64,000 nucleotides of DNA, taken from Variovorax paradoxus. GTDB taxonomy: Bacteria > Pseudomonadota > Gammaproteobacteria > Burkholderiales > Burkholderiaceae_C. Location: NCBI RefSeq assembly GCF_000834655.1, contig NZ_JXQQ01000008.1:1-64000 (forward strand), in the 5' to 3' direction. The notes below the pieces were generated by a model. The model saw only the letters and a program-made list of their open reading frames with translations, was not told the origin of the DNA and searched no databases. Shown here piece by piece: positions 6,999 to 15,767 of the stretch. Within the stretch, counting starts at the first letter, position 1, and every line of letters starts with the position of its first letter. Both the position numbers and the translations under genes were made by a program.

Positions 6999-7109
6999 TG
7001 CTTGTTGTCCTCGATCTTGCATGACGTGAAATCCGTCGAGGATTTTGCTTAGCAAGAGTCGGGCTAGATATAGCGTTTACGAGGAACGATCCTCGAATCG
7101 AAGTTGAAC

Positions 7110-7151
7110 GCTATTGTTTTAATAGCTGATGACGTCCGTGTGACGGGCGTC
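7110..7151. repeat. Comamonadaceae-type intergenic hairpin repeat, copy 2
   Basis: GCTATTGTTTTAATAGC (7110-7126) followed by GACGTCCG-tgtga-CGGGCGTC (7131-7151) repeats the architecture of 5754-5794, with only scattered substitutions. The two copies bracket the paralogous secreted-protein genes. It lies at the edge of the vsr/methyltransferase island and just upstream of the secreted-protein operon on the minus strand. Confidence 0.6.
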
Positions 7152-7607
7152 GCGGCCAGTTTCGGACGCCGACCTCACGGAAACCCTGAGACGCAACGGT
7201 TTTGGGGCTGGCCCGCATGGGTGCATGGCCCGCGCCGGGGCGCGTGGTGAGGTCTGCGGCGGTGCGTGAGTGTGGCGGTTGTCAATGGGAGGAACACAGG
7301 AGCAGCTCGCGCATGTCAATCCTGCCCAATCAAAAATTTGAGAATGTCGATGTCCATGGGCGTACGCTAGGTGAACACTCGAGCTCGGGGGGCGAGTTTT
7401 CTGTTGCCACTGGCGGCGACCGATCGGCAGCATGGGCTTGAGCCCGCGCTCAAGCCGAATCTTGATCGTCGTGCGCGCGCTTGGTAATGTTGGCGTGGAA
7501 GTAGTGGTGTGCCGTATGCGGACCACAATCGGGGTTAGTTCTCGACGAAGTAGCAGGCAATATGACGCTTCACGAAGTGGTAGAGCAACACGCGCTAAAG
7601 CCAATAC
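7152..7607. other. Intergenic stretch, no gene recognised
   Basis: About 450 bases between the secreted-protein promoter region and vsr. Open frames exist on both strands, but none has a recognisable motif, a ribosome-binding site or the codon bias of its neighbours. Base composition shifts from GC-rich to mixed across this stretch, which fits the left boundary of an acquired segment. I found no tRNA, integrase or flanking direct repeat by eye. Confidence 0.5.
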
Positions 7608-8102
7608 ATGGTTGACATCGTCGACGCGACCACACGAAGTCGGATGATGTCCGGGATTCGATCAAAAAGCACCCAGCCAGAGCTTGCTGTGCGCCGCGCG
7701 CTTCATGCGAGAGGTTTTCGCTTTGTGCTTCACGCCTCAGGACTGCCTGGATGTCCTGATATCGTTCTTCCGAAGTGGCGCGTTGCGATCTTCGTACACG
7801 GATGTTTTTGGCATTCGCACGGGTGTCGCCTCTCAAAGATGCCAAGTAGCAACACGGCCTTCTGGTCGGCAAAGCTGGAAGACAATGAGCGACGCGATGC
7901 GCTTGCGCACATGACCCTGATTTCTGCTGGCTGGCGAACCGCCGTCGTGTGGGAATGTGCTCTGAAAACTGCTCAGTCGCGTGAACAATGGCCCGATTTA
8001 ATCCTGCAGCTCGATCACTGGATCAGGTTTCAACCGAGCTCGATTAGCTTCGAGACCGGTGGCGATTCGGCTACCCCTTTAATTTCTGACTGCAATTCCT
8101 AG
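7608..8102 (+). CDS. vsr: Very short patch repair endonuclease Vsr
   Basis: A 164-residue Vsr-type nuclease. It nicks next to T:G mismatches created when 5-methylcytosine deaminates, starting repair to C:G. Visible hallmarks are the N-terminal DATTRSRMMSGIRSK, GCPDIVL with the metal-binding Asp, FVHGCFWHSHGC (His and zinc-binding Cys/His cluster) and VVWECALK (zinc Cys). E. coli Vsr has Thr63 before the HGCFW motif; here it is Val, as in several homologues. The C-terminus is about 30 residues longer than in E. coli. The stop codon at 8100-8102 directly abuts the ATG of the methyltransferase gene, a tight operon that fits the known Vsr-Dcm partnership. Confidence 0.94.
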   Translation: MVDIVDATTRSRMMSGIRSKSTQPELAVRRALHARGFRFVLHASGLPGCPDIVLPKWRVAIFVHGCFWHSHGCRLSKMPSSNTAFWSAKLEDNERRDALAHMTLISAGWRTAVVWECALKTAQSREQWPDLILQLDHWIRFQPSSISFETGGDSATPLISDCNS

Positions 8103-9719
8103 ATGGCCTACAAGCTAATAGATTTGTTTGCCGGTCCTGGTGGCCTAGGCGAAGGTTTCACTTCGTTCAACGAAGGTAAAACCTTTGAGATCGGTGTTTC
8201 CGCCGAGATGGACGCGAGCGCACATTCCACATTGCTCCTTAGGAGTTTTTTCCGAAAGGCAAAAAAACGCGGAAATGAAAGAGCGATGCTTGCCTACTAC
8301 AGGTTCTGCAACGAGGGAGTGAAGCACCCTCGCGATTTATTTCCGGAGCTGTGGGCGGCGGCGGCGGAAGAAGCTCAGCAGCTTACGTTGGGTAAGCCCG
8401 AAGACAATGAAAAACTCGACAAGCTTATTGCGATCAGGAACTTAAACGGAGAAAAGACGATTGTCATTGGTGGGCCCCCTTGCCAAGCGTATTCGCTCAT
8501 CGGGCGGGCCAAAAACAAGGGCAATGCAAAGTACGTTGCTGAAGATGATCATCGTCACTATCTTTATAAGGAATATCTTCGTATTCTTCATCTGTCGAAG
8601 CCGGTCATGTTTGTGATGGAGAATGTCAAAGGAATTCTTTCTTCTCGGGTGAATGAGCGGCAAGTGTTCCATGACATCTTGAATGATTTGACAGACCCAA
8701 CGCTTGCGGTAACAGGTAATTCAGGCGTCCGATACACAATTCATTCATTGGTCACGGACACACGCTTCGATTACGGCGCAGACCCTACTCAAATTGAGGC
8801 AAACGATTTCATCATTCGAGCGGAGGAATATGGGTTACCTCAAGCACGGCATCGCGTCGTTTTGCTTGGTGTCCGTGAAGACAAAAAATACTCTGGTGAT
8901 CAGTTGCTGAAAAAAGCATCGCCACTGGCGGTTGAGGACGCTATCAAGAAACTACCTGCATTGCGTAGTCAGTTAAGCAAAGACGATAGTGCGAAGAAAT
9001 GGTGCGAAATAGTCAGCGGGCTTGGTCGAGCTTTGAGCAAAAGTGCAAATGCCATCGAAGATCTGGCTGGCTTGTCCAAAACCCTTGCCAAGCAGGCATC
9101 TAAAATTTCCTCAGACTTTGGTACTGGTAGCCTTCGCTACGAGGATCCAGTTATGCGAGAAGCAATAACTGATTTCGAGCGGTGGGTCAGTGATGCGACT
9201 GGAAAGTTAAAGGTGCATCTAAACCATCAGGCCCGCTCGCACATGAATAGTGACTTAGGTCGCTATTTTTACGCAGCAACTTTTGCCGCGCATTATGGAC
9301 GTTCACCAAAGGGGCACGCCGACTTTAACCTGAAGGGACTGGCGCCTGCGCATGCAAACTGGAAAACTGGGAAATTCGCGGATCGATTCAGGGTGCAGCA
9401 ATATGGAGCGCCGAGTACTACCGTCACCAGCCATATCGCAAAAGATGGTCATTACTATATTCATCCCGACCCTTTGCAGTGTCGAAGTTTGACCGTGCGC
9501 GAAGCCGCACGCCTTCAAACTTTTCCGGATAACTATTTTTTTCAGGGAAATCGCACACAGCAATATCATCAAGTTGGAAACGCCGTGCCACCAATGCTGG
9601 CGTTTCAGATTGCAGGCGTTTGTGAGAGTATCCTAAAGAACTCGCCTGGGAAAAAAACAGGGGAAGATTCACACGTGCGAATAGTCAGGAGTTCCAATGC
9701 GACTGAAGAATGTGCCTAG
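8103..9719 (+). CDS. DNA (cytosine-5-)-methyltransferase
   Basis: A 538-residue C5-cytosine methyltransferase. Conserved motifs in order: I DLFAGPGGLGEGF (about 7-19), IV GGPPCQAYSL with catalytic Cys near 126, VI FVMENVKGI, VIII EEYGLPQARHRVVLLG, and X QVGNAVPPM near 490. About 100 extra residues lie between motifs I and IV, and the recognition domain falls between VIII and IX. The recognition sequence cannot be predicted by eye. There is no adjacent classical restriction endonuclease: the partners are vsr immediately upstream and, convergently, the dual-ATPase kinase/receiver pair. Its 3' end overlaps the receiver gene by 51 bases. Codon use is much less GC-biased than in the surrounding housekeeping genes, indicating horizontal acquisition. 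Confidence 0.95.
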   Translation: MAYKLIDLFAGPGGLGEGFTSFNEGKTFEIGVSAEMDASAHSTLLLRSFFRKAKKRGNERAMLAYYRFCNEGVKHPRDLFPELWAAAAEEAQQLTLGKPEDNEKLDKLIAIRNLNGEKTIVIGGPPCQAYSLIGRAKNKGNAKYVAEDDHRHYLYKEYLRILHLSKPVMFVMENVKGILSSRVNERQVFHDILNDLTDPTLAVTGNSGVRYTIHSLVTDTRFDYGADPTQIEANDFIIRAEEYGLPQARHRVVLLGVREDKKYSGDQLLKKASPLAVEDAIKKLPALRSQLSKDDSAKKWCEIVSGLGRALSKSANAIEDLAGLSKTLAKQASKISSDFGTGSLRYEDPVMREAITDFERWVSDATGKLKVHLNHQARSHMNSDLGRYFYAATFAAHYGRSPKGHADFNLKGLAPAHANWKTGKFADRFRVQQYGAPSTTVTSHIAKDGHYYIHPDPLQCRSLTVREAARLQTFPDNYFFQGNRTQQYHQVGNAVPPMLAFQIAGVCESILKNSPGKKTGEDSHVRIVRSSNATEECA

Positions 9720-10841
9720 TCGCTCAACCATTGAGGGGAGAAATTCGCTTGCGACCGAGGCTACACGCGTCTCTTTTTGCAGCATACTTTTCGCATCATC
9801 GCCGTTGACAGGAATTGATCTAATAAGATCAAAACGCACCATGAACGGACCAATGTTCTCGTTCTGCGAGAGCTTCATTGGAGGAAGAAAATGAAGAGAA
9901 CTTTTGCTTCTATGCTGGGTAAACGCGCGTTGCTTGTTCTGCGCTTTTTCTAGATTCTGACGTACTGAGTCAGGAATTTTTTCACCTTTGGAGGTATGGG
10001 CATTCTGTTCAGCGGTGTATTTTTCAATGGCCGAAAGCATTTTTCCCCATTCCAAGCTTTCGTCGTCACAAACAGCTAGCTGAATTGATTCAACTTTCCC
10101 TGTTGCCAGATCGCATCGAGGTGTTATCACGACTTCAAGCGTCCCATTTGCATGCCGGACAATATCACCTGTGCGTAATGTCTCGTGTATTGGTGGGACA
10201 ACGTACCATTCCTCGGGATGCGCGCGTTGTTTGAATTTTTCTAAAAGGGAGGCATAAACATGCGATGTTATATGCCTTGCCATGGCCGTAGCCAAAAAAT
10301 CTTCATTTTGAATGCTGGGCTCTTCGAGCCAATTGCTCCAACGCGGCCAAACTGAGTGAAAAAAGAAACGCGCCATTTCTTTTTTTATTTCTTTTTGAGC
10401 GCGCCGCACGCAAATGATCATTGGAGTTTCCGAAATTAGCCAATTCAAAACGGCGCTGGTCCCTTCATTTTCCTCCCCTCCTTTTGTAAATACTTTTACC
10501 TGCGCTTTCGCATAACTTGGAATGTCGGCGCCACTAGGCTCCCCAGTGAACATCGCGATCGCGGCAAGCTCCGATTGAAGCAAGATATCTAAAACCTCAT
10601 TTCCCGAGCGATCCATTGATTCTTTGCCAGGCGCCGCAAGTCTCAGATCAACAATCCCCGCGTCGAAGTCACACAGTTCGATTTTTGCTCGTGCTTCCTC
10701 TAAAGTCGAAACCACCGTCAGCACATAATTAACATTGGCCTTCAAGCTGGCGCGAACATTTTGGCGCTGAATTGTGTTTTTCCACTCTTCTTGCTCTTGG
10801 GGATTGTCTTCCACCAGTAAAAGGCGAACGATCTCAGTCAT
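9669..10841 (-). CDS. Receiver-domain protein with an unrecognised C-terminal domain
   Basis: A 390-residue protein. Residues 5-135 form a response-regulator receiver domain with all key residues: Glu11/Asp12 in LLVEDN, phospho-acceptor Asp65 in IVDLRL, Thr99 in MFTGEP and Lys120 in VFTKGG. The remaining 250 residues match no DNA-binding output domain I know. They include a charged helical segment (RRAQKEIKKEMARFFF), then TGDIVRHANGTLEVVITPRCDLATGK near 224-249, where the motif TPRCDL stands out, and a Lys/Gln-rich helix. The start at 10841 (MTEIVRLLL) is preceded by AAAGGA. It overlaps the 3' end of the upstream kinase gene by 8 bases, so the two are surely cotranscribed and translationally coupled. 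The phosphorelay partnership is inference; the effector activity is unknown. Confidence 0.85.
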   Translation of the reverse strand: MTEIVRLLLVEDNPQEQEEWKNTIQRQNVRASLKANVNYVLTVVSTLEEARAKIELCDFDAGIVDLRLAAPGKESMDRSGNEVLDILLQSELAAIAMFTGEPSGADIPSYAKAQVKVFTKGGEENEGTSAVLNWLISETPMIICVRRAQKEIKKEMARFFFHSVWPRWSNWLEEPSIQNEDFLATAMARHITSHVYASLLEKFKQRAHPEEWYVVPPIHETLRTGDIVRHANGTLEVVITPRCDLATGKVESIQLAVCDDESLEWGKMLSAIEKYTAEQNAHTSKGEKIPDSVRQNLEKAQNKQRAFTQHRSKSSLHFLPPMKLSQNENIGPFMVRFDLIRSIPVNGDDAKSMLQKETRVASVASEFLPSMVERLGTFFSRIGTPDYSHV

Positions 10842-13047
10842 TTTTTCCTTTCGGTTGCTTTTGAGGGAAGTCAATTATGAATGTCGTATCTGCTGTATCA
10901 GCCATAAAACGCAAATCACCTTTACTGGCTCTGCATGCTTCCCGAGCTATAGCTAGTCCAAGGCCCGTGCCTTCTGAGCGCAGGCTAAACCCGACTTGAA
11001 AGAGTCTTGTCGCGTAGTTGTCCTCTATAGGCGGGCCATTGTTTGCTATGTAGATATGAACATTATCGTCAGACTGGTCGGCACTTATCGCGATGTACTT
11101 GTCCTGTTGTTCTACTGTGTCAAGCCAATGAATAGCATTTTCAAAAATATTCATCACTGCCGCTTGAAGGTCCTCGGGAAAGCCAAAAGCGGAGAGTGAG
11201 GGTATTTCTTCTGTCTTGATCTTAATATTGCCAGATGAGATAGCGTCACCAAAAAGAAGAATTGCTGCTTCAATTGGCTCTTTGAGATTAAATGAGCGCG
11301 GCGCTCCTCTTTTTTTTCCGCCCAAAGGATCTAGGCGTTTAATAAGGCGACTCATTTGTTTAACCCCATCAAGAATTACTAGGAGTTGGCGTGGCAGTTG
11401 CTCTCTAGCTAATATGCCTGCGGCATCGGTGCTAAGCAAGATGTTGCTATCTTCATTTAAATGCCTAGCGGCATTGGTCATCGGATTGAGAATTCGTCGA
11501 CCTTCATGAATGACCTGCGCAACAACTAGGCCAAGCGCTGCGCGAGATTGCAAAATCTTTTGAAAAGCATCAATTTCTTCTAGAGAGGCGGAAAGGGCTG
11601 CTGAGTCTTTTTCCGCGGCGCGCCTTAGAGGTGCTCTATGCGCTTCGGGGGTCTTTTCAATTGCCTTATTTATTGCCGGTAAAGCTGCGAGTTCCTTAGT
11701 GGCATCCAAATCCGCCACAACTCGTCGACTCAGACCAGCTTTTTCCCGAAAGGCAATGCGACGCTCCTCAACATGAAGAAGGACGCCTTGGAGTATTCTC
11801 TTTAGTCTCGCAAACGCCCCGTTGTGCTCCAAACCCTCTCTACTGCTGCGCTCGATTAGTTTTGAGCGATTCTCCGAATCGATGGTAACTCTTCCAGAAA
11901 CTTGGGAAAGCCCGAGTTTTCGAGAGGGGTTTTGAACGCGCTGACGTTCCAGCTCAAGCCAGTCGTTTTCAGGGTCCCCGTAAGGTCGAATCCTGAAACC
12001 CTCTCTAAACATCGCAATACCTGAGCTATCGTTCAAAATTCTGCGTGCAGCGCGAATTCCGATTTCTTCGAAATTTAGCCCCATTCGTCGAAATAGGTCT
12101 GCTACAGCATCTGCTTCGCGGTCGTAAACGTTAAGTTCGACGAAAATTGCGCCGCATGATTCTTCATCCGAATTTAATGGGGGGGCAGCAACATCGATTG
12201 ATTGCTCGACGCTGTCTCCTCTAGATATTTTAAAGGTGCCCTCAAATCTGCCCTCCTCCGTGAACATGCCGACCAGTTGATAGTCGGCATGTTCAGCGAC
12301 ACGAAATGGTCTAATAACCGTTGGGTCTTCGTTTTCATGCTGAGGGGAAATGGCATCGTTATTTAACTCAGCAAGAATTTCTACTCCGTCAAACCCAGAG
12401 GACGACTTGGTAAATCCTGAGAGATTGAGCCGAATTTCAAAAGATGAGAGTTTTTCCTGCGAAGGAGAGGCGACGCGACGGAGCTCTCGTATAAGAGATT
12501 CAACGCGCTTTTTTGTCCATTCATCTCTCAAGTCGGAGATTTTTAGGACTACGCCCGTTGAAATGCCAGAATCGCCGGGAATATTCCGAGTTTCAACAGG
12601 GATTTCGATTAAATCAAGGTAGGTGTCAGCTAAAAAATCTTCCCAATTAACGACGACGCTGGTCTCAACGAGTCGTTCCTCGGCATCAAAAGAAACTGCC
12701 GTTAGGGTCGTTTTTGATCCCAAACGTGATGCAGCGAATCGCCCAATGCCCTTTGCCCCCAGCATCTTTCGACCCTTTGGGCTTTCTGATCGCTTTAATT
12801 TGTCGTCGGTTGCGGGTTCAAACCAGCGATTAGCGACCACTTCCGGTGTCATGCCATGACCTTCATCAATCACGACAATTTCTCCGAGCGAGGAGGGAGG
12901 ATTCCTAGGGGTGATCTCTATCGAAACATAAGGGGAATCCGCGTCATAGGCATTTTTTACTAGCTCAATTACTGCAGCCTCCGGGCCGCTGATCAGCTGG
13001 TCCCCAATAGTACGAATAATGCGGGCGCGTGGCCTTAGCTTTGCCAT
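10834..13047 (-). CDS. Dual-GHKL protein: MutL/Hsp90-type ATPase fused to histidine kinase
   Basis: A 737-residue protein with two separate GHKL ATPase modules. The N-terminal one (about 1-200) is of MutL/MORC/Hsp90 type: ELVKNAYDAD (N-box), VVIDEGHGM (G1) and GAKGIGRFAASRLG (G2). The C-terminal one (about 500-735) is histidine-kinase type: a dimerisation/phospho-acceptor helix with VVAQVIHEGRR (candidate His514), N-box MNIFENAIHW, an IANNGPPI G1 with Asn in place of the usual Asp, and GFSLRSEGTGLGLAIA. A middle region of about 300 residues has no recognised motif. There is no transmembrane segment, so it would sense something cytoplasmic. ATG 13047 follows AGGTG by 7 bases; a GTG nine bases upstream is less likely. 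Base composition is AT-rich relative to gyrB. It is followed directly by the receiver gene. Confidence 0.88.
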   Translation of the reverse strand: MAKLRPRARIIRTIGDQLISGPEAAVIELVKNAYDADSPYVSIEITPRNPPSSLGEIVVIDEGHGMTPEVVANRWFEPATDDKLKRSESPKGRKMLGAKGIGRFAASRLGSKTTLTAVSFDAEERLVETSVVVNWEDFLADTYLDLIEIPVETRNIPGDSGISTGVVLKISDLRDEWTKKRVESLIRELRRVASPSQEKLSSFEIRLNLSGFTKSSSGFDGVEILAELNNDAISPQHENEDPTVIRPFRVAEHADYQLVGMFTEEGRFEGTFKISRGDSVEQSIDVAAPPLNSDEESCGAIFVELNVYDREADAVADLFRRMGLNFEEIGIRAARRILNDSSGIAMFREGFRIRPYGDPENDWLELERQRVQNPSRKLGLSQVSGRVTIDSENRSKLIERSSREGLEHNGAFARLKRILQGVLLHVEERRIAFREKAGLSRRVVADLDATKELAALPAINKAIEKTPEAHRAPLRRAAEKDSAALSASLEEIDAFQKILQSRAALGLVVAQVIHEGRRILNPMTNAARHLNEDSNILLSTDAAGILAREQLPRQLLVILDGVKQMSRLIKRLDPLGGKKRGAPRSFNLKEPIEAAILLFGDAISSGNIKIKTEEIPSLSAFGFPEDLQAAVMNIFENAIHWLDTVEQQDKYIAISADQSDDNVHIYIANNGPPIEDNYATRLFQVGFSLRSEGTGLGLAIAREACRASKGDLRFMADTADTTFIIDFPQKQPKGKND

Positions 13048-13133
13048 AGGAAGCACCTATTAGAGGTCCCCGTCATCGGAGAGGAACAAACACCGCTTAA
13101 ATGTAGAACTATTCGGGCGATGTTTCGTACTTT

Positions 13134-15767
<2,634 letters not shown>

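Follow-up and report, generated by a model that had tools for sequence, protein, structure and literature searches.

The window analysed here is a stretch of 64,000 nucleotides of Variovorax paradoxus DNA (contig NZ_JXQQ01000008.1), and our subject is an acquired island next to its gyrB gene that encodes a kinase with two GHKL-type ATPase domains, a receiver protein, a C5-cytosine DNA methyltransferase and a very short patch repair endonuclease (Vsr). The island (7082..13133) lies between the left flank and the end of gyrB; its left edge falls between 7081 and about 7231 and its right edge at 13134-13138. It is AT-richer than its surroundings, with a GC content of 49.4% compared to about 60-72% in the neighbouring 1-kb windows. 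The plus strand carries vsr (7608..8102; 164 aa; Pfam PF03852, 9.6e-28; TIGR00632, 132.4 bits with a cut-off of 97.85) followed by the methyltransferase gene (8103..9719; 538 aa; PF00145, 1.3e-44; TIGR00675, 133.5 bits with a cut-off of 100.65), and the minus strand carries the genes for the receiver protein (9669..10841; 390 aa) and the kinase (10834..13047; 737 aa). A first-pass annotation made from the sequence alone had described such an AT-richer block beside gyrB with these four genes, and this description is confirmed.

The site is nearly empty in two of the eight genomes from the same genus that were compared, the gap between the end of gyrB and the left flank being 158 nt in one (L190) and 79 nt in the other (L191). 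A full kinase occurs in only one of 61 genomes of the genus, the window's own, and one further genome has a piece of it where a contig ends. Across the genus, what comes directly after gyrB varies (L184-L191): two genomes have almost nothing there, and four have about 6-11 kb of different content.

The translation of the C5 gene contains PCQ, ENV and QxRxR, which we take to be its methyltransferase motifs, and its best match in PADLOC is DrmMII (285.6 bits). Class 2 DISARM systems consist of DrmA, DrmB and DrmC with DrmMII; the other three island proteins match no Drm model. As in type II restriction-modification systems, a DNA methyltransferase is present. None of the four proteins matches a helicase family in a Pfam scan, and no cognate restriction endonuclease was recognised in the island by Pfam, NCBIfam or PADLOC, except that the GHKL part of the kinase matches REase_II models. 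Apart from Vsr, these searches recognised no nuclease in the island.

The kinase and the receiver

The kinase comprises a MORC-like GHKL+S5 clamp (residues 1-441), a DHp domain with the phospho-acceptor H514, and a HATPase_c domain at about 624-730, and thus has the HATPase_c_3, DHp and HATPase_c architecture with an adjacent receiver gene. The N-terminal ATPase, which had been suggested to be of MutL or MORC type, is MORC-like by predicted fold and has intact motifs, and the histidine-kinase core and the receiver proposed along with it are present as well. Both HATPase families were matched in 39 of 39 aligned kinases, and the residues of the relay and of the ATPases are conserved in the family.

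The receiver begins with a REC domain (about 1-137; acceptor D65), continues with long helices (139-202) and ends in a beta-rich output domain in which the motifs HPxE, TGD and PxCD are conserved. A viral structure library searched with the receiver model gave no match at E 0.001, and a sequence search of the PDB with the single receiver returned nothing credible. A look-alike of the form GDI...P.CD prompted a comparison of the output domain with PemK/MazF, which we rejected (hhalign 0.2%; a weak comparison, as the PemK alignment had eight rows, including one that clearly did not belong).

Linkage of the methyltransferase to the kinase

Related loci were retrieved by searching with the kinase or receiver, never with the methyltransferase (the window itself excepted). 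We counted 94 loci whose kinase reached 140 bits or more against the profile, the window included: 27 are of the window type, a label that rests partly on the kinase score, and 67 are more distant. At 80% identity they form 81 groups, and a methyltransferase is present in 18 of 21 and 54 of 60 groups, respectively. Omitted were short duplicates (L021, L029-L034, L059, L126-L135), L007, in which the kinase runs off the contig, L051, and lower-scoring matches that include L012-L015, L022-L028 and L121; in the last of these a C5 gene lies 79 nt away. Matches occurred in 283 plasmid records, five of which were examined.

A C5 methyltransferase is found within 3 kb of the kinase in 24 of the 27 window-type loci. 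In two of the three loci that lack it, L060 and L061, the contig stops short, and where at least 3 kb could be read on both sides the count is 19 of 20, with L016 as the exception. The C5 gene is convergent with the kinase (opposite strand, downstream) in ten loci, upstream on the same strand in seven, downstream on the same strand in four and upstream on the opposite strand in three; because all four positions occur, the linkage does not reflect a single fixed gene order. The two gene pairs of the window lie on opposite strands, which would fit a solitary C5 methyltransferase with its Vsr that had come to rest beside an unrelated kinase/receiver pair by chance. However, the sequence up to 3 kb from the kinase (146 kb in total) has 27 C5 matches and that at a distance of 3-8 kb (204 kb) a single one, and these neighbourhood counts, along with the four orientations, make a chance association extremely unlikely, to the point that we regard it as ruled out.

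Vsr follows a different pattern. It lies within 4.5 kb in 15 of the 27 window-type loci and was not found over that distance in the other 12, or in 66 of all 94 loci, some of which are cut by contig ends. It accompanies 27 of the 51 loci with a C5 methyltransferase, none of the 34 with an amino methyltransferase and one of the nine with neither (L011), a bias with a Fisher p of 2.8e-8 when kinship is ignored. The co-conservation of four genes proposed in the first-pass annotation thus stands for kinase, receiver and methyltransferase, to which its own refutation by chance linkage does not apply because these three are co-conserved, but not for Vsr. Since Vsr is the sole recognised nuclease of the window's island, one might suppose that it is the restriction nuclease and is controlled by the kinase and receiver. 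The 66 loci without it, and its absence beside all 34 amino methyltransferases, led us to reject this idea, which retains only a very small probability.

Methyltransferase classes and nuclease-type genes in the wider family

Viral contigs account for 65 of the 94 loci and for 59 of the 67 more distant ones. Relatives of the kinase are encoded at 66 loci in viral contigs (L060-L125), and the genes upstream include two that match CI repressors and one that matches a portal protein; because of these upstream genes, prophages seem to carry the system. A defence-like context had been anticipated from the window, and the wider family fits it through these viral-contig loci and through a cassette on a Hymenobacter plasmid (L017), directly downstream of which lies an operon that we take to be MZA-like. 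MZA is a defence system with a MutL/MORC-like ATPase, a feature it has in common with the window.

In the more distant loci the methyltransferase within 3 kb is a C5 enzyme in 27, an amino (N6/N4-type) enzyme in 34 and neither in six. Genes upstream of the kinase belong to the Pfam families Eco57I, N6_Mtase, N6_N4_Mtase and MethyltransfD12; among 30 such genes, 14 match Eco57I, 13 N6_Mtase and 7 N6_N4_Mtase (the sets overlap), and 23 of the 30 exceed 400 aa and have the motif [NS]PP[YF]. The profiles used for C5 and amino methyltransferases, and for HNH and metallo-beta-lactamase (MBL) proteins, were built from these same loci; the C5 identity was cross-checked for four genes by Pfam and for three more by the annotation of the record. 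Eight weak, small C5 matches (L138-L140, L064, L078, L079, L082, L088) lack the PC dipeptide, and five of these proteins that were inspected have PEC in motif IV and so retain the Cys. When mapped on a quick maximum-likelihood tree (83 kinases, no bootstrap), the class of the methyltransferase changes at least six times.

The open reading frame (ORF) next to the kinase is short in 15 loci. Two were set aside, L004, which is cut by the contig end, and L011, which by eye is not a receiver; the remaining 13 are receivers, related to REC by profile at 93.0% in the set with MBL genes and 97.7% in the set with HNH genes, and by a match to PF00072 in L010. The gene that follows these short receivers is of HNH type in nine loci and has an MBL fold in three, that is, in 12 of the 13. 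The statement of the first-pass annotation that no classical restriction enzyme is present applies to the window, but in several of its relatives an HNH or MBL-fold gene adjoins a short receiver. Where the next ORF is longer, none of 73 loci has an HNH or MBL match by these profiles, which stem from the short-receiver loci and could miss other nuclease types. Longer next ORFs were judged to be receivers by group profiles (84-96%) and not individually, and six loci with no readable next ORF were excluded from both receiver-length counts.

The exception among the short receivers, L010 (10090-11342; Campylobacterales), encodes a receiver of 214 aa and, after it, a 203-aa gene with no Pfam match and a C5 methyltransferase, and may represent another effector type. 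In L093, L101, L104, L107 and L110, and likewise in L114, L115, L118, L125 and L146, a receiver ORF of about 340-410 aa is followed by a gene of 240-320 aa that Pfam assigns to neither HNH nor MBL and that may encode a further type of effector.

Relation to described systems

The claim that the system is undescribed is not supported, since sister systems were reported in 2021 (Bellieny-Rabelo, Pretorius and Moleleki 2021, PMC8011034). According to the excerpts of that paper, kinases with HATPase_c_3, HEF_HK and HATPase_c adjoin Response_reg_2 receivers (91.6% linkage, 644 regions); C5 methyltransferases dominate their neighbourhoods, Vsr is widespread, N6/N4 methylases and nucleases, HNH_2 foremost, also occur, and the authors suggest signalling cascades that control restriction-modification systems directly or indirectly. 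These systems and the window thus share a dual-HATPase kinase with DHp, an adjacent receiver, a C5 methyltransferase and often Vsr. In the loci from the seven of 200 phylum genomes that are positive for Response_reg_2 (L158-L164), a C5 gene is nearby in 7/7 and Vsr in 4/7. The output domains are related too: window-type against Response_reg_2 gives 95.3% in hhalign (E 2.4e-8), and comparisons of profiles among window-type receivers, 450-aa receivers and Response_reg_2 give 97.6%, 95.3% and 92.3% for the three pairs.

The two types are nevertheless distinct. The window kinase has no match to PF19191 (HEF_HK) even at E 10, and only two of 39 relatives match it (best E 0.043); PF19192 (Response_reg_2) matches neither the window receiver nor any of 40 receivers at E 0.01 and is absent from the window's genome. 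Window-type kinases measure about 740 aa compared to about 1000 aa in HEF_HK loci, and the receiver 390 aa compared to ORFs of about 570-720 aa. On the 83-row tree, 20 window-type rows and seven HEF rows form separate groups, with support of 100 each. What is new over the 2021 work is the separate clade, the counts per kinase, the class changes, the pattern of short receivers and nucleases, and the shared output domain.

Other systems resemble the island in part. MORC and paraMORC ATPases occur in restriction-modification operons that also encode Vsr-type nucleases and cytosine methyltransferases (Iyer, Abhiman and Aravind 2008, PMC2292703, in excerpt), and the GHKL+S5 ATPase, the cytosine methyltransferase and Vsr are common to both; in the window, however, the ATPase is fused to a histidine-kinase core and has a receiver partner, and no helicase is found among the island proteins. 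Restriction enzymes of the BbrUII/HgiDII type have an N-terminal GHKL likeness to residues 14-232 of the kinase (NF050001, 4.3e-16), but the kinase scores only 58.6 bits with a cut-off of 550 and has a histidine-kinase core as its C-terminal half instead. In VcSduA, a GHKL Shedu protein, the N-terminal GHKL ATPase is needed for anti-phage activity and has been proposed to control the nuclease; unlike the window system it is a single protein with a fused DUF4263 nuclease, and the excerpted text describes no relay (PMC12137116). HATPase and REC domains are mentioned among the predicted defence systems in a figure legend of PMC13092281, and, as far as that legend goes, a relative of the window system may already be on its list. 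The open-access literature matches listed contain no experimental study of this kinase/receiver pair.

Discussion

We read the island as a mobile cassette of restriction-modification type in which a phosphorelay runs from the MORC-like clamp to the receiver, and give this reading a probability of about one half. A DNA methyltransferase, though of changing chemistry, regularly accompanies the kinase, and in part of the family a nuclease-type gene comes after a short receiver where other members have a longer one. Restriction would be the simplest function common to all. In such a cassette the methyltransferase would mark self DNA, and the MORC-like GHKL+S5 half of the kinase would be an ATP-driven clamp that samples DNA and senses its modification. 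Unmodified foreign DNA at the clamp would switch on the C-terminal histidine-kinase half, phosphate would pass from H514 to D65, and the restriction or toxic step would fall to the receiver's output domain or to a partner recruited by it, presumably cleavage in the service of phage defence. Vsr would be an accessory that repairs T:G mismatches arising from the deamination of 5-methylcytosine, and its occurrence with C5 enzymes fits such a role.

Several observations weigh against this reading. In the histidine-kinase half the phospho-acceptor His, the N box and G2 are present, but the G1 box, with DNGPG as the family consensus, is NNGPP in the window kinase (residues 669-673 in the ATG numbering of 10837-13047); D occupies the first position and G the last in 34 of 39 aligned kinases each, and N for D is the sole case among 14 in one alignment (A2) and one of five among 39 in another (A4). 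Because of this replacement the kinase half of the window protein may bind ATP weakly or be weak. No nuclease fold was recognised in the window's output domain: structure searches with the whole receiver listed almost only REC matches, and HNH, MBL and Vsr were rejected at 0.1-0.2% in profile comparisons. Nine of the 94 loci have no methyltransferase within 3 kb, and four of these (L016, L087, L147, L120) have more than 3 kb read on both sides. In a tree-aware test the bias of Vsr towards C5 loci is not significant, with three usable pairs, none of them in the opposite direction. Finally, the HNH and MBL profiles behind the counts derive from the genes after short receivers and would miss other nuclease types.

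The kinase-receiver layout could also belong to a two-component regulator that senses the state of the cell (nucleotides, DNA damage or modification) and controls the neighbouring methyltransferase or restriction-modification genes without being restriction machinery, which comes close to the proposal in the excerpted 2021 paper (PMC8011034). This is unlikely, though by no means far-fetched: no helix-turn-helix family is found in the window receiver or among 40 receivers at E 0.01, where one isolated HALZ (leucine-zipper-type) match occurs, and the nuclease-type genes after short receivers and the exchange of methyltransferase class count against it as well.

Abortive infection offers another explanation. 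Detocs is reported to trigger an abortive response through its response regulator. Its kinase and receiver proteins serve phage defence, an example of what proteins of this kind can do, although the three-gene set DtcA/DtcB/DtcC is described without a methyltransferase in the excerpted account (PMC11728103). The island proteins have no Detocs match in PADLOC 2.0.0, which may predate the Detocs models. Under this explanation the methyltransferase would only protect from a lethal output, and the relay would lead to arrest or death, for instance through an RNase or a nucleotide-acting domain, and not to the cleavage of foreign DNA. The lack of a recognised fold for the output domain would suit it, but the linked methyltransferases and the HNH and MBL-fold genes point to DNA targets, the PemK/MazF comparison, weak as it is, was negative, and we consider it rather improbable.

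It is possible, at somewhat less than even odds, that the cassette belongs to a distinct class of restriction in which a MORC-like clamp reads self and non-self DNA, a His-Asp signal carries the message, and both the effectors (output domain, HNH or MBL-fold) and a methyltransferase of any chemistry are exchangeable. In no restriction-modification system known to us has a phosphorelay been demonstrated between the recognition of DNA and its cleavage. If this cassette has one, it would join two-component signalling and restriction-modification, two large bacterial machineries, and would give a testable role to MORC-type ATPases of bacteria, a family that in eukaryotes acts on chromatin. The changes of methyltransferase class and the nuclease-type genes beside short receivers would turn the association reported in 2021 into a concrete mechanism, for a combination of kinase, receiver and methyltransferase found again and again, both in bacteria of many kinds and in viral contigs.
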